From NCBI GenBank assembly GCA_007694005.1, contig RECN01000103.1, positions 1 to 64,000 on the forward strand: 64,000 nt of DNA, read 5' to 3'. The DNA comes from Spirochaetaceae bacterium. GTDB taxonomy: Bacteria > Spirochaetota > Spirochaetia > DSM-27196 > SKKC01. The notes beneath the pieces are model-generated. The model was not told the DNA's origin. It saw nothing but the letters and a program-made list of their open reading frames with translations, and made no database searches. Made by a program: the position numbers and the translations under genes. Below are positions 1,071 to 11,114 of the stretch, one piece after another; the stretch's first letter is position 1, and each line of letters starts with the position of its first letter.

Positions 1071-2384
1071 GTGACAGAACTTGACGCAATTATTCAGCAT
1101 CTGAATAGTGCCTACGATCGACCGATTCGGGATCCGGTATGGCACCACGTGTATCTTTCGGAACCCCTCGTAACACTCGTAAGTCGCCCGGAGATGCTGA
1201 AACTGACCAGAATCAAACAACTCGGACCGAGCTATCTCGTCTACCCGGGAGCGACGCATACCCGGCTGAATCACAGCATCGGTGTATTTCATCTTGCCCG
1301 AAGGATCATACAAAAGCTCGTGTTCTCCGCTTCGTGCCCGTCGCTAACGCTTATCGGGGTCAAATCATTTCTTACAGCGGCGTTGCTCCACGATCTCGGT
1401 CACTTCCCCTACACGCACAGCCTGAAAGAACTTTCGCTTGAAGAACACGAGCATCTTGCCGCACTCGCGATACGCGGAACGGATCTGGGTTCGTATATAC
1501 GCGACACAGTCGGCGCTGACCCGGACATGGTAGCTTCGATTATTGATGAAGAACGCATTGCACCGGAGGGGACGGAACTGACATTGTACCGGTCAATACT
1601 TTCCGGTGCACTCGACCCGGATAAACTCGATTACCTGAACCGCGATGCGTATTTCTGTGGTGTACCGTACGGTCTGCAGGACGTGGATTTCGTGATCGAT
1701 CAGCTCGAACCGCTACCCGATTACAGGCTTGCCCTGAAGCGGGAAGGTATTCAGGCCGTAGAAACCATACTATTCAGCAAGTACCTGATGTATCGGGCGG
1801 TGTACTGGCACAAGACCGTGCGCGTCGCGACTGCTATGATCAAGAAGGGGCTTTATCTGTCACTCCGCGACCGGTATATCATGCCGGACGCGCTGTACGG
1901 CCTGGACGATGAGTCCTTTGTCCGGGTCATGCAGGAATCGGGCAGCCCGTCGGCAGAAATCATTGGTGATGTCTCAATGCGAAGGTTTCACAAGGTTCTA
2001 TATGACATTCCCTTCGATGCGGAGAACGCGGCAATCACCGAACTCTCAGACATGGGAGCACGGACCCGCCTGGAAGCGGACCTTGCACGCGAGATGACAG
2101 GTATGCTCGGGGTCACCGTGGATGAAACGGACGTCATCATCGATATACCCGAGCGGGTATCGTTTGAGGTCGAGATGCCAATAACCGAACGGGGCCGCAT
2201 ACAGGACTTCCCGGATGCAGGAAGCGTGTTCACGACGGATGTGGTGCGCGAGTTTACGGCGTCTCTTCGACGGGTTCGCGTCATGTGCCGGGCACATGAC
2301 GGTTTGACAACAGAAAAAACAGCACCACTATTCGCGTCAGCATTCGGTCAAACCAGGGCTGACCAGAGTGGATTTCAGGTATGA
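1071..2384 (+). CDS. HD-domain phosphohydrolase (dNTPase/SAMHD1-like)
   Basis: This 437-residue protein has the metal-binding pattern of HD-superfamily phosphohydrolases of the COG1078/SAMHD1 type. His68 lies in NHSIGV, His107-Asp108 in LLHDLGH, and Asp184-Lys185 in LDPDKLDYLNRDAY. Relatives hydrolyse deoxynucleoside triphosphates or other phosphate esters in the cytoplasm; the substrate here cannot be told from sequence. The start is a GTG with no strong ribosome-binding site, placed just before the first conserved helix. Its stop overlaps the next gene in an ATGA, indicating translational coupling with the small protein and the ComFB-like gene. Confidence 0.88.
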   Translation: MTELDAIIQHLNSAYDRPIRDPVWHHVYLSEPLVTLVSRPEMLKLTRIKQLGPSYLVYPGATHTRLNHSIGVFHLARRIIQKLVFSASCPSLTLIGVKSFLTAALLHDLGHFPYTHSLKELSLEEHEHLAALAIRGTDLGSYIRDTVGADPDMVASIIDEERIAPEGTELTLYRSILSGALDPDKLDYLNRDAYFCGVPYGLQDVDFVIDQLEPLPDYRLALKREGIQAVETILFSKYLMYRAVYWHKTVRVATAMIKKGLYLSLRDRYIMPDALYGLDDESFVRVMQESGSPSAEIIGDVSMRRFHKVLYDIPFDAENAAITELSDMGARTRLEADLAREMTGMLGVTVDETDVIIDIPERVSFEVEMPITERGRIQDFPDAGSVFTTDVVREFTASLRRVRVMCRAHDGLTTEKTAPLFASAFGQTRADQSGFQV

Positions 2385-2851
2385 GTATGCGACAGTCCAA
2401 AGTAATGAAAGAGCGAATACGACGCGTGAACCTGCTCTTCAGGGAACTCGGTTACGAGTGCGCCGACGGAGAGCTGGTTGACGAAACCTACAGCACCGGT
2501 GTCGAGCAGGATGAGTTTCAGGCCGGCGTGTTTATCGACCGCGACAGTAAGTTCCTCGAGATAGCCTTCAGCTTTTCGTTTTCGGCATCCCTGGAAGAGT
2601 TCGTTCGCAGCAAACTCGAAGAGCTTTTTCAGATCTGCTACGAGTTCGGGTGTTATACCAACGTACAGACCTCGAAACGCGAGATAGTGTTTTCAGTCTT
2701 CTCAAAAGTATATTACGCTGGTCTCAACTACTTCAGTCTCAAAGAGACTGTTCGTGATTTTCGCATGGCGGTTGATGCTATTGCCGAATCACTCGACATA
2801 CAGCGGGAGATTTCCGGGGAGGATGGCGATGGACCTGCACAATCTTCGTGA
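2381..2851 (+). CDS. Conserved hypothetical protein
   Basis: This is a 156-residue cytoplasmic protein with no signal peptide or membrane segment. It has alternating strands and helices, with an aromatic-rich middle (FLEIAFSFSFSASLEEF) and a helical C-terminus. The arrangement vaguely recalls the YbjN/type III chaperone-like fold, but no motif confirms that. The start overlaps the stop of the HD gene (ATGA), and the end overlaps the ComFB-like gene by 23 nt, so the three should be made together. Function unknown. Confidence 0.75.
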   Translation: MSMRQSKVMKERIRRVNLLFRELGYECADGELVDETYSTGVEQDEFQAGVFIDRDSKFLEIAFSFSFSASLEEFVRSKLEELFQICYEFGCYTNVQTSKREIVFSVFSKVYYAGLNYFSLKETVRDFRMAVDAIAESLDIQREISGEDGDGPAQSS

Positions 2852-3515
2852 AGATGAAGTAATACGAGTCATCAGGGATCTCTGTGACGAAGAGACCCGG
2901 TCACCACGGTCAGGCTATTTAACGAGTCCGGACTGCCAACTGGACGCGGCGTGTTTTGTCCTCAACCGCATCGCTCCCCGCTATGTGAGTTCCGGCCGGG
3001 GCCTTGCACACACCTTATCTGACAGCGAACACGACACGCAGGGAAAAATCGATCTAATTGCGCTCGCACACGAAGGACTCAAAAGAGTAACTTCGGTCAG
3101 GCGATCGTATTACGATGCGCAGGGCGCAAGCGAAACATCACACTCCGACTTCGTGTTCATGTATCCGGCTATCAGTGGTCGTGTTATATGCGGAAGAACC
3201 TTCGAACCGGCTTCCGAGGTACAAGTCTCGCTGACACACGACGGAACCCTCGTTCCTATGGAAGATTCACGATGGCCGAACCCCTACGAGGTTACCGTTA
3301 ACACCCGAGGAACCTACACGTTTCTCCCGCGTGCCATCGAGGCAGACGTCGACGAGAGACAGAACGCTGAGTTCTGCATTAAGGTCACCGGAGACTCATA
3401 CGAGGAACTGAAACACTATTTTGTGGTTTCCGGCGCCAAAACCCCGGTTCGGGCCGTGCAGCTCGGAACATACGCGGAGTACCATCTCCCGGACCTCTAC
3501 GTCATCCCCCGCTGA
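2829..3515 (+). CDS. ComFB-like domain protein
   Basis: This is a 228-residue protein. Residues about 5-65 match the late-competence ComFB family: a helical region ending in QLDAACFVLNRIAPRYVSS, where the family has DVxAxALNxLPPRYV. Some ComFB-family proteins have been linked to cyclic-di-nucleotide signalling. The remaining part is beta-rich with a Tyr/Pro-rich end and no recognised domain. ATG 2829 is preferred because GGGGAGG ends 6 nt before it; ATG 2823 and a further upstream start are possible. It overlaps the preceding gene and is convergent with the DUF503 gene. Confidence 0.75.
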   Translation: MDLHNLREDEVIRVIRDLCDEETRSPRSGYLTSPDCQLDAACFVLNRIAPRYVSSGRGLAHTLSDSEHDTQGKIDLIALAHEGLKRVTSVRRSYYDAQGASETSHSDFVFMYPAISGRVICGRTFEPASEVQVSLTHDGTLVPMEDSRWPNPYEVTVNTRGTYTFLPRAIEADVDERQNAEFCIKVTGDSYEELKHYFVVSGAKTPVRAVQLGTYAEYHLPDLYVIPR

Positions 3516-3547: not shown

Positions 3548-3838
3548 CTAGAAGTACTCCGTGTGTATCTGTACATCGTGCAGACGCCCGGGGACCTGGT
3601 CTTCAACGAAGGAGAGAACCTTGTTCATGACTTTCTCACCGTACCGTCGGTTGTTTGACACAACGGCCGCCCCGATCTGCCCGAACATCAGACTGTCCTG
3701 AAGGTCAACCTCAGCGACACTGATCTTGAACTTCCGGATAATACGGTCTCGAAGCGATACCATGGTCACACGCTTTTCCTTGATTGACGTGACATCAGGA
3801 AGTTCAATGACAATCTGTATCATGCTGACAGCCATCAT
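3548..3838 (-). CDS. DUF503 family protein
   Basis: This 96-residue protein matches the DUF503 family over its full length: an initial strand, SIKEKRxxxxSLRDRI, the VAEVD strand, and GAAVVSNNRRYGEKVMNKVLSFVE. The family is small, cytoplasmic and ferredoxin-like in predicted fold; in other bacteria it is often near rbfA/infB, but its role is not settled. Here it is instead last in a minus-strand cluster. Its ATG overlaps the stop of the voltage-sensor gene (ATGATG), which indicates coupled translation. A second in-frame ATG five codons later matches the usual family start. Confidence 0.85.
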   Translation of the reverse strand: MMAVSMIQIVIELPDVTSIKEKRVTMVSLRDRIIRKFKISVAEVDLQDSLMFGQIGAAVVSNNRRYGEKVMNKVLSFVEDQVPGRLHDVQIHTEYF

Positions 3839-4989
3839 ATGCCGTCGGTATCTCCCGGCAGATCGAACAGATCTCCAACGTTATCGAGCGTCAGGTCGCT
3901 CTGACCGGCACTGTCGCTCTGCCTCGCCTTCAGAGCGAGGAAATCAGTATTGTACGCCAGTGAGAGTTTTGAGACCTCGTCGGCGGGCTGCTCCGTTTCA
4001 ACTTTTACCTGCAGATTATACCCGGGCTCCGAGATTCCCCGTTTCATGACGTAGACCGGATCGGATACGGTCATGCAGAAATATGGTGCGTACAGAAACA
4101 GAAGAACGCCAATCATCGAAATTATGATCAAAAAATATACCAGGCTGTCTCGCGCCTGATTCCGGGAGACCGGCCGCAGGCTCAAAAAAACCTCGACGGT
4201 CCCAGACTCTATCCAGGTATAATCTGATGGTCCAAACCGTCGTGAGAACTCAGCGTCGGAGTAGCGCGCATACCGTGTATGTCCGCTCTCGCGCACGACA
4301 AGGATGGCTTCGTCGTAGTCGGCGAACTGCTGCAGCCGGGCCTCCGCTGCGGCGTCCGATAGCCCCTGAGCACGGATCTGTTCGGCCGATGCGAGGATGC
4401 GTTCGCGATAGCTGCGTTCGAAACCGGGGACGTTAACAAATATGTCTAAAAGCGAAAACAGCATAAGCACGGCGACGAAGGTCGTTACGACAAGAGATGC
4501 CAGCCGTCCAACGTGCTTCTGAGTAACGATGCTGTCGGTGTGTTTTATGTTCCGAAACAGCTTGAGGGCTCGAAGCAGTCGCAGGACTCTCGCGATACGG
4601 ATGGCTTTGATTATCTTGAGCAGGTTCAGACTGCGCCCAAGCCCCATGATTGGTGCCCCGCCGACGATTATAGCTGCAACCTGTGGACCCGAAGCGAACA
4701 GCAAGAGCGGAAGACTCGCAACCAGATCGATCCAGCCCCGCTCATACCGGATATAGTGTCCGGCGCGCCGCCGAATGAATGCGAAATAGAACCGCGTCAG
4801 AAACTCGATCGAAAACACTATGTCGAGTGCGAGTGCTGCGTACAGAATCATCCGACGCGAGGCCCAGTTCCAGTCACGCAGCTCGGAAAAATCTTCTAAG
4901 AAACTCTGAACGATAACAAGAACGATTGCGATCAGAATGATGTTCTCGAGTATCATCACATATCGGGGTGAACGCGCTGACTCAGTCAC
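3835..4989 (-). CDS. Voltage-sensor-like membrane protein with HAMP-like tail, no pore
   Basis: This is a 384-residue membrane protein. Residues 12-145 look like a voltage-sensor domain: S1 12-30, S2 48-70 with Asp56 and Glu62, S3 86-109 with Asp88, and an S4 carrying K125, K128, R131, R134, R137, R140, K143 and R146, exactly every third residue. A fifth membrane helix (162-185), about 95 hydrophilic residues and a sixth helix (282-301) follow. After the sixth helix comes a HAMP-like stretch with Pro311 and DEVSKLSLAYN at 337-347. No pore loop or TVGYG-like filter is present, and there is no catalytic output domain. GTG 4989 is chosen because GGAGG lies 7 nt upstream. The gene is coupled to the DUF503 gene. 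Confidence 0.75.
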   Translation of the reverse strand: MTESARSPRYVMILENIILIAIVLVIVQSFLEDFSELRDWNWASRRMILYAALALDIVFSIEFLTRFYFAFIRRRAGHYIRYERGWIDLVASLPLLLFASGPQVAAIIVGGAPIMGLGRSLNLLKIIKAIRIARVLRLLRALKLFRNIKHTDSIVTQKHVGRLASLVVTTFVAVLMLFSLLDIFVNVPGFERSYRERILASAEQIRAQGLSDAAAEARLQQFADYDEAILVVRESGHTRYARYSDAEFSRRFGPSDYTWIESGTVEVFLSLRPVSRNQARDSLVYFLIIISMIGVLLFLYAPYFCMTVSDPVYVMKRGISEPGYNLQVKVETEQPADEVSKLSLAYNTDFLALKARQSDSAGQSDLTLDNVGDLFDLPGDTDGI

Positions 4990-5027
4990 TGTTCTTCCTC
5001 CCTGAAGCTTTGCATTGCTCGCGACAC

Positions 5028-5954
5028 TCACCACATGAGCTCCGCTGCGATACTGTAGAGCTCATCCAGTATCTTGACGTCGAAGCCGTAGAACTTATAG
5101 TTCCGCCTCGCTACGCTGAACCAGCTTTTATCCGGCGTATCTGCTCCTCGATCCACCTTCTGATTCGGCTGAAAACCTCGCGCCCGCGAGGAAAATATAG
5201 ATGCGAGTCGCGATGTCGCTTCTATGTTCGGATTGTCGACGAAAGACATGTTCGCACGTACGGAAGCTGCGACGACCGCATCGGGCACCGCGGGAAGACG
5301 CTTAACAAGCAGTCCGCGCGCCGTCTCGGCGAAAGCCGGCTGTACGAGCCCGCTTGAGTAGCCGCTCTGGCCCCCATCACCACCCGAAACAAGATAGATG
5401 GCAGGCTTCAGCAGAATGTTGACATCGAGAAGCGCCTGGACGTGTTCGCGTCCCATACGCAGTCGTTGCACCTTCGTAAGTTCGAAGTGCGTGTATCCGC
5501 GTCGCTGAAACAGCTCGTCCAGGTACTTTTTCGACAGTCCGTAGTACACGGCGGCCAGCGGCCCTGTCATCGCACGACGCGACTCAGGACGGGTCAGCAG
5601 CGTTTCCACAGATCGGCGTACCTGTTCCCTCGACTGCCCGCCCGCATCTGCCTTCTGGGTCATAAACGAGATAAAATCAAAATTTACGCGTCGATCGAGC
5701 AGGAGGTCAAGAAATGCCGGTATTTCAGTGTTTATGATGTCTGTCAGAGATGTAAAAAGCAGAGACAGGATCTCATGGTCCGGAATACCTCCGAAAAACT
5801 GCGGCGTTCGCAGGGTCGGCATGAGCTGGGAACCGTTTGCGTTCAGAAACTGGAGGATCTGTTCTTCTTTCTGAAGCGGCGTGTAACTCTTTAGCGCGGG
5901 ATTAGCCAATAAACGGTTGATGAAGCCTTTTGCGATCTGTATTTGTGAATTCAT
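5028..5954 (-). CDS. Conserved hypothetical protein
   Basis: This is a 308-residue protein with no signal peptide and no convincing membrane helix. It is helical in the first 170 residues and contains a glycine-rich turn (VSGGDGGQSGYSSG) near residue 205. The stop at 5028 lies 38 bp before the start chosen for the voltage-sensor-like gene, so the two are probably in one operon. I do not recognise the family. The only clue to function is the neighbourhood. Confidence 0.7.
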   Translation of the reverse strand: MNSQIQIAKGFINRLLANPALKSYTPLQKEEQILQFLNANGSQLMPTLRTPQFFGGIPDHEILSLLFTSLTDIINTEIPAFLDLLLDRRVNFDFISFMTQKADAGGQSREQVRRSVETLLTRPESRRAMTGPLAAVYYGLSKKYLDELFQRRGYTHFELTKVQRLRMGREHVQALLDVNILLKPAIYLVSGGDGGQSGYSSGLVQPAFAETARGLLVKRLPAVPDAVVAASVRANMSFVDNPNIEATSRLASIFSSRARGFQPNQKVDRGADTPDKSWFSVARRNYKFYGFDVKILDELYSIAAELMW

Positions 5955-6023: not shown

Positions 6024-9000
6024 ATGAACACCTTCTGTAGGACAGTCTGTCTCTCCCTGCGCACGTATATCATCCTGTTTCTCTGTATCGGCATGTGTGG
6101 AGCTTTGGTAAAAGTTCAGGCTGATGAAACACCTGGATCTGACATCCGTTCGGCTTCGCAGGCATCACTTTTCGCGTACGGACGACCCGATCCCCGCGTC
6201 GAAGTGTTTCTCGACGGAAGCTGGCAGACCGGCGCGGCTCTGCAGCTCGGTCTCCGCAGAGTCGCAACCGAAGACACCACAGGCAGCTGGACCATGGATC
6301 AGGTCTCTCTTCCGGGATTCGCGAGCAGGACCTTCAGCAATATAGTCGATCTGACGCTGTCTGTGCGGCTTGATGACCGCTACTACTTTGAAACCGTATT
6401 CATAGATGAGTTCGACCTCGACTCAATGCTGTTCGGCTACGACGGGCAGAACGACGAGTTCGTGCAGCGGGTGCGCATAGGCCTCGGGCCAATTGCGATC
6501 GATCAGTACCCCGGTCTCGCCGCGGGTGACGCCGGAGCATCGGTGTTCGGGATCGACACCCGGTTCCGCGGCGCCGCGTCGATTACCGAAGCTATGCTGC
6601 GCTTTGAGCAGACACAGCCTGACCTGCTTCGCTTTCAGGGTGGTGCCGAGCTCAGCCGTTCGCGGATTCCTGTTCTCGAGTACCTCCGGGGCCGTCGCTT
6701 CGTTCTTCCCGACCGGCCGGTTTCCGCGCTGCGCGTCTTTGTCGAAGCAGATTCAGGAATCGAAGCAGCCGACGGCAGGCGGTATCGGGAACTCGACCTC
6801 AACCGCGACGCGGTCGTGTCGCTGTCGCAGGGAACCGTCCGCCTCAGGGATCCGGCCCGGGGCCGCGTGCTCGCCACCTACACTACTGAAAGCGGTGCGG
6901 TCACCGGTGACCTTGAGACGGGGCGCGATTTCGTCGTCCCGATCGATGAACTCGGTGTTCTGAAATCGTCCGGACTCGCCGGGGCCGCCGGCAGATTTGA
7001 CGCAACGACCGCGACTCTCGGAGTGGCACGGTTTAATGGAAGCTCTGACCCTGAGGTGAGCGCCGGGGAAGAATTCCTCGAACGCATCGGCCGCCGGTCC
7101 GGCCGCCCCGAACAGGACGCCCTCTTTGTCGAGATAGACGGATCTGTAGCCGCCCTCCTCTACGAGTTGGGCTACTTCAGCCCCTTCGAGCGGCTTGACG
7201 CCTACGCGGTATCCCGGCCCCGGGATGCAGGCGAGTTTCCGGATATACGCTTTGTCCGGCGCGACGGTGCAGCCGAGTTTGTCCCTGATAGTGAACCGGC
7301 TGCCCGGTTCTCGCCTGAGGGCGACGAACTTCTGTTCGGCAGCCTTGATCCCGGTAATCCCAGTGCCCGCTATCCCTTCTCTGCGTATCCGGCCCTGTAC
7401 GGACCGGCGGCATGGCCCGAACCCGGTTCTGCAGCCGCACCCTTTGACATACTCCTTGAAGTCACCGACGAGGTCGATACGATCAGACTTCCCTCGGGCG
7501 TCGTTCCGGGTTCCGTTGAAATGACGAGAAACGGCATTCCCGACTCGCGTTTCGACGTCACCGCAGGGGGTCGTGTGAGTCTTCAGTCGCCGGCGCTGCC
7601 ACAGGACGTGCTCGAGTTCCGTTTCCGCACTATGGATGACGGGGCGTCATCCGGGACCATACACGGTGCCGTCGGTTCGCGCAGGCAGCTCTCGGAGCGA
7701 TCGGAGCTCGCAGCCGGGCTCAGCTACACGCGCGACCTGTCGGAGAACCCCTTCACCGAGCGGGCGAACGAGTCGGTCGCCGAGACGACCGGAACGCTGT
7801 CGTGGCGATTCACGGGAGAAAGCCTGCAGGCGGGTGCCGGGGTACACATACGAGCAAGACTTCCCGATACTACCGGCGTCAGAAGACTCTTTGACCTCGA
7901 CGCCGAGCAGATCGCCGTGCCGGCACAGCCCTGGCTCAGTCTCCCAGGTGCAGAACCCGCACCGGCTCTTGAAATTCGTGACCGGGATGGTGGAGAAATC
8001 GTCGCACCAGCCGCTGACGAAACAGATCGCACCCCCTGGAGCGGCAGCCGCGGGCGGCTGCTCTTTCGCGACTACCAGACTGAAGGCGGCTTTCGTGCCT
8101 TTGGGAGCGATCTGGATCCAGATCGAGAATACGCCTACGAAGACGGAAGCCTGACCGGACCTTATGTTGCCTCGCGTCCCGGCACCGACGGAAACGATGC
8201 ACGCGACCGGGCGCTGGTCCTGGACTACGAGCTCGACGCTCTCGACGATACAGGGCAGTGGGTCAGCGCTCAACTGCAGTTCGGACCCGATACGCTCACG
8301 CAGGCACCCGGCGGCATGCGCTTCAGACTCGAGACCGCCGGTGTAGACGGATCGGTCGACATCTACCTGCAGCTCGGCGCGACGGCCGAAGACCTCGACG
8401 GCGACGGTGTAACAGACCGCGGGCGGAGCGCCCTGCAGCCGGCGCTCGATTTTACGCACAGCGACGAGGGAATTACGCTGCTGGCAGGGGGACTCCCGCT
8501 GCCCGACGGCCGTGGCCAGGCAGCCCGGGAAGACATTCTGCAGCGTGGCTTCCTCGCCGCCGAAGACGGAAACCGCATCGTGACGCGACGGATTGCTACC
8601 GACGTCGGATCAACCGATAACCCGGCCAAAGACCCATATGTCGTTCTGACCTTCAGCGCTGCCGAAGTACAGCGCATGGGGATACCCCGCGCGGCGCGTC
8701 TGGTCGTCGTCCGCACCGATGATCCAGCCCCAGACGACGAACCTGCAAGCGGTGCTGTTCTTTTGTCTGACATCGCCTTCTTTTCGCGCCCGCTTTCGGC
8801 GCGCAGCATCGACACGTCAGGAAACACCACAGCAGACCCGAGGACCGTCAGTACCACTACTGAGTCCGATCTCAGGTTGCCTGACGGCACGCGTCTACCG
8901 GAGTCGTCGTTTCTCGTCATGGTGCACCCGGAAACAGCGATTTTCAGGTCCGGTACCGCCGCGTCGACCACGAACCGCGTGCTTGCCGTTCGCGCCGACC

Positions 9001-11114
9001 TTTTACCAGATGGCGGTTCCGAACGAGGCGTCGAAGTGACCGGGTTGCACGAAGAAGCACGGCTGGGCGAGTACGAGCGCTTCGTCGTGTACATCCATAC
9101 CGGGACGGTCCCGGAGGATAAGACGGTGTCCGTCGAGCTCAGCAGTGGTTCCGACGGGCGTAACGCGATTTCCGCCACGTTTAATCTGCCCCCGAGCGCA
9201 AACTGGCAGCGGGTTGAAGTAAATACCTCCACGGGCCGTGTCACCCGCTACTACCGGGAAAACAGCTCGACTGCCGATCTCAAAGCAGAGCAAATCGGGA
9301 CTGCTGAGCTCGACCGGATGACCCCGATACGGCGTACATCCATCAGCCTGTCGTCCTCAGCGGAAGACGACTGGACGGTCTACCTCGATGAACCGCATCT
9401 CGCCGGGAGTCGCAGAGGTCTCGACGGCAGTTTCAGCGCCGATCTGAGCTATCAGGGGCCAGAGCAGTGGTTCGTGTTGCCGGGTGGCGTTCAAGCAGGC
9501 AGGTTCACGTTCGATTTTGCAGGCACGGTAGACGCTTCCCGGGTCGACACAGGCGAAACGCCGGTTCGTGCCGACACGATACGCGTCGACGGGAGTAGCG
9601 GTATCAACCTTGGTACACTACGCGTCGAGCTCGACGCGGACTGGGTGTACGCCCCTCCTTTCGATGAGCAGATTCTGCTTCTCGGCCACGGCATCTCAAC
9701 GGCCTCGCCGTGGCACGGGCTGACCGCATCGGAAACCTACACGCGCAGCATGACTGGAGTCGGAACGACGGTCGAGCAACATCTGCTTTCCTCAGCGCTT
9801 TCGGCTGCCCCCTGGAGTTCGCGTGCATCCGCTTCACGGAGCAGCCGCAATGACCGGTATCAGAAACAGCAGAGCGCATCATTTGCGCACGCCCCGTTTA
9901 CCGGCAGCGTCGGACTCGCACAGGCGGGTCGTCGCGATGCGCTCAATCCCGATACACCCTATTTGCACAGCTGGATGGCGTCGTTCCCCGGTCTGCTCCC
10001 GGCGCAGGATGAGACGGTGACACGAAGAACCTTTGAAGGCCGCTTCGCCCTCAGGCCGACGTTTCAATCAGTATCTCCGTCGCTCGCACTCGACAGCCAG
10101 TGGACGGCCCTGCCTGCAGTCCCGCAGCTTTCTGCGAACTCGGGGGGCAGAATTGAGCTTGGACTTGAAGCCTTCGGGGATTCGGGCGTACGTCTGACCC
10201 CGTTTTACCAGCGCAGGCTCACGCTCACCGAAACGAATCGGTCACTTTCGACCTACCAGGACGACATCGGGGTCGTCGCTGAGTCCCTCGGACCGCAGGA
10301 AAATATCATATACCGGTCGGTTCCGTTTCTCGAGCTCTTTCCAGGCAACGCTTCATCGGTCCTGTCTTATATCGACTCCCGGCGCGCTGCGACGCGCTAC
10401 ACGCCTTCGGCGGGCATAGAGTTCCGGCGACCCTTCGGAACACGCTTGATGGATCTGGTTGTACCGCATTTTTCCTCTGTCGAAGTTGCCCGGGAGTACC
10501 GGGCGGAAGACGACAGCACGGATACCACCGGCAGAATCACCCTCGAATCGCGCGCTCTCGCGGTAAACCTCTTCGGCTCGCTTGGTGCCTATCCTCTCAC
10601 CGACATGTTTCGGACCGATGAATACGAGTCGCGCATACGTGTCCGGCTCGATTACCCCGACCGTCTTCGGGACGTATTCCAGCAAAAGTACCAGGCAGAC
10701 TTCGAATGGAGGGTGTTTCCGTCCAGTTCTACCGAGATCAGCCTTCTGAACGAGACGACGATAGACCGTGGTGTGCGCGAAGGTTTTGAGCATCGCACAC
10801 GGCTTTCCGCCACGCTCGAGCACGACGACAGTGGTTTTGCAGAAGGTATTCGCGTTCCCCTGACCTACGAGCAGTCACGCCTCCGTTCAGAACACGATCT
10901 CGAACTCGTAGTCCGCCGCACGGAAGCACCGACTGCGACTGAGCTGCTCCGAATCACCGCAGGCACACGCCTGCTCGCACTGTACGACAATACGCTCCGC
11001 ATTACGCTCGGAGGGAGAATCGGCTACGAGATAAGTGGAGCATGGACCGACGACCTTCAGACCGTTGAGCGACTCGCCGTTGAGTTGCGACTCGACGGCA
11101 GACTTCGGTTTTAG
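6024..11114 (+). CDS. Very large exported beta-rich protein, probable outer-membrane or surface protein
   Basis: This 1696-residue protein begins with a signal peptide (hydrophobic core near residues 12-30, cleavage likely after KVQA). The body is almost entirely predicted beta strand. It has repeated jelly-roll-like stretches, a DLDGDGVTDRG calcium-loop-like motif near residue 790, and a long C-terminal third of alternating strands ending in LDGRLRF, with the terminal Phe typical of outer-membrane barrels. The size, modular centre and barrel-like end recall giant surface translocon or adhesin proteins such as SprA, but I cannot establish homology. Two smaller barrel genes follow in the same direction. 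Start is the first ATG; there is no strong ribosome-binding site. Confidence 0.75.
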   Translation: MNTFCRTVCLSLRTYIILFLCIGMCGALVKVQADETPGSDIRSASQASLFAYGRPDPRVEVFLDGSWQTGAALQLGLRRVATEDTTGSWTMDQVSLPGFASRTFSNIVDLTLSVRLDDRYYFETVFIDEFDLDSMLFGYDGQNDEFVQRVRIGLGPIAIDQYPGLAAGDAGASVFGIDTRFRGAASITEAMLRFEQTQPDLLRFQGGAELSRSRIPVLEYLRGRRFVLPDRPVSALRVFVEADSGIEAADGRRYRELDLNRDAVVSLSQGTVRLRDPARGRVLATYTTESGAVTGDLETGRDFVVPIDELGVLKSSGLAGAAGRFDATTATLGVARFNGSSDPEVSAGEEFLERIGRRSGRPEQDALFVEIDGSVAALLYELGYFSPFERLDAYAVSRPRDAGEFPDIRFVRRDGAAEFVPDSEPAARFSPEGDELLFGSLDPGNPSARYPFSAYPALYGPAAWPEPGSAAAPFDILLEVTDEVDTIRLPSGVVPGSVEMTRNGIPDSRFDVTAGGRVSLQSPALPQDVLEFRFRTMDDGASSGTIHGAVGSRRQLSERSELAAGLSYTRDLSENPFTERANESVAETTGTLSWRFTGESLQAGAGVHIRARLPDTTGVRRLFDLDAEQIAVPAQPWLSLPGAEPAPALEIRDRDGGEIVAPAADETDRTPWSGSRGRLLFRDYQTEGGFRAFGSDLDPDREYAYEDGSLTGPYVASRPGTDGNDARDRALVLDYELDALDDTGQWVSAQLQFGPDTLTQAPGGMRFRLETAGVDGSVDIYLQLGATAEDLDGDGVTDRGRSALQPALDFTHSDEGITLLAGGLPLPDGRGQAAREDILQRGFLAAEDGNRIVTRRIATDVGSTDNPAKDPYVVLTFSAAEVQRMGIPRAARLVVVRTDDPAPDDEPASGAVLLSDIAFFSRPLSARSIDTSGNTTADPRTVSTTTESDLRLPDGTRLPESSFLVMVHPETAIFRSGTAASTTNRVLAVRADLLPDGGSERGVEVTGLHEEARLGEYERFVVYIHTGTVPEDKTVSVELSSGSDGRNAISATFNLPPSANWQRVEVNTSTGRVTRYYRENSSTADLKAEQIGTAELDRMTPIRRTSISLSSSAEDDWTVYLDEPHLAGSRRGLDGSFSADLSYQGPEQWFVLPGGVQAGRFTFDFAGTVDASRVDTGETPVRADTIRVDGSSGINLGTLRVELDADWVYAPPFDEQILLLGHGISTASPWHGLTASETYTRSMTGVGTTVEQHLLSSALSAAPWSSRASASRSSRNDRYQKQQSASFAHAPFTGSVGLAQAGRRDALNPDTPYLHSWMASFPGLLPAQDETVTRRTFEGRFALRPTFQSVSPSLALDSQWTALPAVPQLSANSGGRIELGLEAFGDSGVRLTPFYQRRLTLTETNRSLSTYQDDIGVVAESLGPQENIIYRSVPFLELFPGNASSVLSYIDSRRAATRYTPSAGIEFRRPFGTRLMDLVVPHFSSVEVAREYRAEDDSTDTTGRITLESRALAVNLFGSLGAYPLTDMFRTDEYESRIRVRLDYPDRLRDVFQQKYQADFEWRVFPSSSTEISLLNETTIDRGVREGFEHRTRLSATLEHDDSGFAEGIRVPLTYEQSRLRSEHDLELVVRRTEAPTATELLRITAGTRLLALYDNTLRITLGGRIGYEISGAWTDDLQTVERLAVELRLDGRLRF

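Follow-up and report, generated by a model that had tools for sequence, protein, structure and literature searches.

What a voltage-sensor domain is for when no pore accompanies it is the question raised by a gene in the window (the whole stretch of DNA that was analysed, 64,000 nucleotides of a Spirochaetaceae contig). Every known prokaryotic voltage sensor is accompanied by a pore domain (2023 review, PMC10377628). The answer that we prefer, at a probability of roughly 60%, is that the pore-less sensor acts on a HAMP output of the receptor type, which is read by the product of an adjacent gene, U308.

Architecture of the sensor protein

The genes of the locus and the parts of the sensor protein are as follows.

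3548..3838, minus strand: DUF503 (YlxP-like) gene, ATGA-coupled (Pfam PF04456, 8.2e-24)
3835..4989, minus strand: membrane protein of 384 residues with voltage-sensor and HAMP-like parts, started by GTG (open reading frame, ribosome site, Pfam, dN/dS)
4995..5001, minus strand: Shine-Dalgarno sequence GGAGGAA, serving the GTG start at 4989 (from sequence)
5028..5954, minus strand: U308, all-helical partner gene of no known family, 308 aa (dN/dS 0.022)
4879..4968, minus strand: S1 helix, residues 8-37 (AlphaFold/DSSP); no variation at E15 and D33 among the long relatives
4774..4866, minus strand: S2 helix, residues 42-72; putative charge-transfer centre D56, F59, E62, R66
4663..4737, minus strand: S3 helix, residues 85-109; G85-W86-x-D88
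4540..4629, minus strand: S4 helix, residues 121-150; nine Lys/Arg at i+3 (125-149)
4435..4521, minus strand: end of S4-TM5 linker and TM5, residues 157-185; long relatives all have Q157 and H159
4177..4434, minus strand: extracytoplasmic alpha/beta domain, residues 186-271, about 86 aa; two helices, four strands; D256-Y257
4075..4176, minus strand: TM6, residues 272-305 (hydrophobicity and AlphaFold)
3916..4074, minus strand: HAMP-like segment, residues 306-358; DP...DE..KL..AYN (hhalign, weak Pfam HAMP)
3862..3900, minus strand: C-terminal peptide SDLTLDNVGDLFD, residues 364-376; proposed docking motif (conserved tails)

The original prediction gave the sensor gene the boundaries 3835-4989, which are correct; the open reading frame and the ribosome site place it on the minus strand, reading 4989..3835. 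Its dN/dS of 0.11 relative to a sister genome indicates a real, constrained protein. Both predicted neighbours are present: the sensor stop and the DUF503 start overlap in an ATGA at 3838-3835, and the 308-residue gene of no known family lies upstream, with 38 bases between its end (5028) and the GTG start (4989).

Of the six main hydrophobic segments in the protein, the first four had been proposed to form a voltage-sensor bundle. This proposal is borne out by four helices in the AlphaFold model and by a match to Pfam Ion_trans (PF00520; E 5.8e-13; 49 bits, the cut-off being 25), a family that is also matched by 34 of 34 aligned relatives. The charges of S4 (K125, K128, R131, R134, R137, R140, K143, R146, and K149) follow strict i+3 spacing; thus, the predicted placement at every third position was right, and the predicted count of eight (125-146) becomes nine (125-149). 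No part of the protein varies less than S4 across 25 full-length relatives, in which the seven charges K125-K143 are invariant. D56, F59, E62, R66, and D88 likewise never vary; acidic residues in S2 and S3, as in true voltage sensors, had been part of the original prediction. We read F59-x-x-E62 and D88 as the counterparts of the charge-transfer Phe/Glu and of the Asp in S3 of Shaker, a reading with which a weak alignment is consistent. Searches with the sensor protein reached Shaker with phmmer (E 0.05) and HCN1 in a profile search (E 0.011). With Kv, BacNav, and HCN channels (PF00520) the sensor protein shares the S1-S4 helices, the charge-transfer residues, and an S4 whose charges are in register. 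It differs from them in having neither filter nor pore helix and in having an 86-residue ectodomain, a HAMP-like tail, and a separate partner.

The AlphaFold model, which was built from an alignment of 34 sequences (mean pLDDT 80.9, pTM 0.73), shows TM5 (residues 154-185) and TM6 (residues 272-307) as long, uninterrupted helices with the ectodomain between them. No pore helix lies there in the model, and the re-entrant pore that would have contradicted the original prediction is likewise not seen. It is therefore improbable, in our opinion, that the protein is a six-helix ion channel of an unusual kind, with a pore lined by S5-S6 and an extracytoplasmic domain in place of the P-loop, even though the Ion_trans match extends across S1 through TM6 (residues 13-298, profile positions 3-221) and TM5/TM6 may thus descend from S5/S6. 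A T-x-G-Y-G-type selectivity filter is absent from all 86 relatives (GYG or GFG occurs in 5 of the 86, by chance, and never as T-x-GYG), whereas the true channel of the same genome has TIGYG. Moreover, the HAMP-like segment continues directly from TM6. The channel in question (G000:C10, L190) is an ordinary CNG-type channel with a cyclic-nucleotide-binding-like tail. As for the ectodomain, no relative was found by sequence in PDB or Pfam.

The predicted HAMP-like character of the tail is supported, in the form of a divergent segment. Alignment of the HAMP part with HAMP domains of the same genome by hhalign gave a score of 21.5 (E 4e-4) over the full length of the tail, compared with a maximum of 7.2 in 40 column shuffles; inclusion of TM6 raised the score to 33.8 (E 2e-6). 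Control alignments of reversed or other segments scored 2.5-11.8, the highest being that of TM6 with the TM helix of receptors. HAMP was also the commonest Pfam family among tail matches of single relatives, but its matches (9 of 23 relatives, best E 0.0065) stayed below the cut-off. The lack of a HAMP-like coiled coil, which would also have contradicted the original prediction, did not occur: the AlphaFold model shows two short cytoplasmic helices (residues 311-320 and 338-360) resembling those of HAMP, followed by a C-terminal helix (residues 368-374). TM6 thus leads straight into a pair of amphipathic helices with a connector, as in the HAMP architecture. The chain stops about 26 residues past the HAMP-like segment, with no catalytic or signalling output domain, as had been noted from the sequence. 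The short C-terminal peptide is acidic/hydrophobic.

The partner gene and its association with the tail

U308 defines a new all-helical family. Its AlphaFold model is all-helical with high confidence (pLDDT 93.6, pTM 0.91), the dN/dS ratio reflects very strong purifying selection, and relatives were found neither in Pfam, NCBIfam, or PDB sequences nor, convincingly, in a fold search of PDB and viral structures. A weak Foldseek match to HD-GYP was not upheld; hhalign gave probabilities of 0.4% for HD-GYP and 0.1% for HDOD.

The sensor gene is an old gene of Spirochaetota. Sensor matches were found in 43 of 61 relatives and in 130 of the 393 genomes of the phylum, although some of the latter matches reflect no more than the sensor portion of an ordinary channel; U308 is present in 123 of the 393. 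All 80 named loci from the genome scan belong to Spirochaetota. In Spirochaetales-type genomes, HD, 156-aa, and ComFB genes converge on the DUF503, sensor, and U308 genes, beyond which a 1696-aa gene diverges. Outside these genomes, only the pair of U308 followed by the sensor persists. It is found in Leptospiraceae MAGs (L133, L135), in Borrelia-like genomes (L145, L146), and in Brachyspira-like genomes (L147, L149). In nearly all loci read, from several classes, U308 adjoins the sensor gene. In the one genome G074 it does not; the tail there is intact and two U308 copies lie elsewhere in the genome. The three-gene cluster of the original prediction is thus conserved in part: the linkage to U308 holds across the phylum, and that to DUF503 only at the order or class level. 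DUF503 (YlxP), the coupled downstream gene of family PF04456, was considered as a core partner and rejected; it is a neighbour only in Spirochaetales-type genomes and its absence from the locus in more distant spirochaetes places it outside the core module. The constant partner of the sensor gene is U308.

Other neighbours vary. The 156-aa and ComFB genes (window positions 2381-3515, convergent to the cluster) and the 1696-aa gene are conserved with the cluster across Spirochaetales-type genomes. The 1696-aa gene, divergent at window positions 6024-11114, has a signal-peptide-like start, a C-terminal Phe, and no Pfam match; its product looks like a large outer-membrane protein. The neighbours of the pair in Leptospiraceae-like genomes are a gene for a Na+/Ca2+ exchanger (2.7e-71 against Pfam Na_Ca_ex; after the pair at L150 8664-9635, and also in L131, L133, and L151) or a K+ channel gene. 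At the Borrelia-like locus L145 (6949-9828) the pair and an unknown 173-aa gene stand tail to tail with cheA-cheW-cheX-cheY. The Brachyspira-like pairs lie at L147 6041-7824 and L149 7386-9178, and the S4 charge ladder of their sensors is gone. Because the neighbours differ among lineages, the target of the pair is not readable from gene context.

The second line of evidence for a functional partnership is the joint loss of HAMP, tail, and U308. All 11 HAMP-less members come from genomes without U308. The lineages f7, f37/f55, and f67 have a HAMP-like segment followed by a truncated tail and have no U308. Analogously, a subclade of genus g5 has a scrambled tail and no U308, while its siblings retain both. 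The rule, predicted beforehand, that the C-terminal motif is present exactly when U308 is held in all 20 U308-positive genomes read by eye (a strict regular expression for the C-terminal motif matched only part of these 20) and in seven U308-negative genomes; in another two negatives the gene lies at the end of a contig. The rule is broken by clade f62 g157, which has kept the motif as VSLDELI and has no U308 in its genome (L242 2114-3454, L243 2369-3703, L244 3048-4427, L245 2829-4169). In this clade, the sensor gene is directly upstream of a same-strand gene for a cyclic-nucleotide-type K+ channel (TVGYGD).

Eight changes of U308 presence are needed on the tree of sensor proteins (7-8 in bootstraps), and long branches carry most U308-less clades. 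It should be noted that the association of tail and U308 is not significant once ancestry is corrected for, the five independent contrasts being too few; two to three of the five run in the same direction and none in the opposite one. Gene order and co-loss, taken together, make a functional link of the HAMP-bearing sensor with U308 well supported. That the C-terminal peptide docks U308 directly is plausible.

Conservation across lineages also bears on whether the protein senses voltage at all. Seven to nine in-register S4 charges are present in 52 of 57 partner-bearing sensor proteins. In Borrelia-like members S4 has decayed to three or four charges, and Brachyspira-like members have no recognisable S4 charges; the partner is retained in both, so that voltage sensing cannot apply to all lineages and is dispensable in some. 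This retention of tail and U308 would be expected of a periplasmic ligand or stress receptor, in which the voltage-sensor fold is a mere membrane anchor and U308 reads ligand binding by the ectodomain, and the WalK-type layout of the second half of the protein fits such a receptor too. We nevertheless consider a pure ligand receptor unlikely, since it predicts the opposite of what most lineages show, namely an S4 that is best conserved and an ectodomain that is most variable (mean identity 0.83 vs 0.35-0.55).

Proposed mechanism and related systems

The original prediction allowed that the signal might be passed to a partner, and this guess is strengthened by the conserved U308 gene. Under the preferred reading of a voltage sensor with a HAMP output, a change in membrane potential (depolarisation or hyperpolarisation) would move S4 within the S1-S4 domain, as we infer from the residues conserved there. 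The motion would pass through the S4-TM5 linker with its invariant Q157 and H159 to TM5, and from TM5 through the extracytoplasmic domain to TM6 and the HAMP-like segment, in a module that is probably dimeric. Switching of the HAMP-like segment would then alter the access or posture of the C-terminal tail for U308. On the cytoplasmic side, the HAMP-like segment and the C-terminal peptide would thereby offer the signal to U308, a product of its own gene, which presumably binds the HAMP/C-terminal tail and would relay the signal to a downstream target. The pair may in this way let spirochaetes read their own membrane voltage.

Each half of the sensor has its counterparts. WalK-type kinases and chemoreceptors share with the second half the order TM, extracytoplasmic domain, TM, HAMP; the sensor adds four voltage-sensor helices to it and has no kinase or methyl-accepting domain, and no known family was matched by the sequence of its ectodomain. 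A Foldseek search with the sensor model gave matches that were all weak, WalK (E 0.19, the best) and Kv2.1 (E 1.1) among them; neither is significant alone, although the two mirror the proposed halves.

The eukaryotic proteins Ci-VSP, Hv1, TMEM266, and SLC9C1 resemble the sensor in coupling a voltage sensor to something other than a pore, be it a phosphatase, a proton path, or an exchanger (the function of TMEM266 is unknown). They differ in having no TM-ectodomain-TM-HAMP module and no U308-type partner. Eukaryotic pore-less S1-S4 domains can conduct protons (PMC10377628), and the sensor domain itself might form an Hv1-like voltage-gated proton pathway. Such a pathway is very improbable here, as Hv1-type channels are reported absent from bacteria and archaea (PMC10377628), and it leaves the receptor half and the conserved U308 unexplained.

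Electrical signalling in spirochaetes

In the open-licence literature, a search for voltage sensors fused to HAMP came up empty, as did one for BB0674/BB0675, locus numbers that were derived from gene order. Electrical signals are in use among bacteria, but no bacterial protein that senses voltage and passes it on in biochemical form, without being a channel, appears to have been described. The sensor family, which is old, widespread within a single phylum, and provided with a constant partner, offers a concrete handle on the question of how spirochaetes coordinate distant motors.

Spirochaetes have motors more than 10 um apart that are coordinated faster than CheY can diffuse (PMC7225975). 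The titles of Goulbourne and Greenberg (1981/1983; cited in PMC4841586) name membrane potential in the chemosensory signalling of Spirochaeta aurantia and the inhibition of its chemotaxis by voltage clamp. That the sensor, its HAMP-like segment, and the private U308 relay form a spirochaete membrane-potential receptor, a counterpart of this signalling, is a tentative and rather doubtful extension; if true, the receptor might provide a fast signal linking the flagellar motors at both cell ends. FliM is present in 338 of 393 genomes and in about 115 of the 123 U308-positive ones; this co-occurrence is uninformative, since flagellated Treponema-like genomes are without the sensor/U308 pair. Their lack of the pair also indicates that it is no general requirement for spirochaete motility. 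At the Borrelia-like loci L145 and L146, the pair lies beside cheA-cheW-cheX-cheY and is convergent to that cluster; with the literature cited above, this location makes it attractive to assign the pair to chemotaxis or to the coordination of motors.
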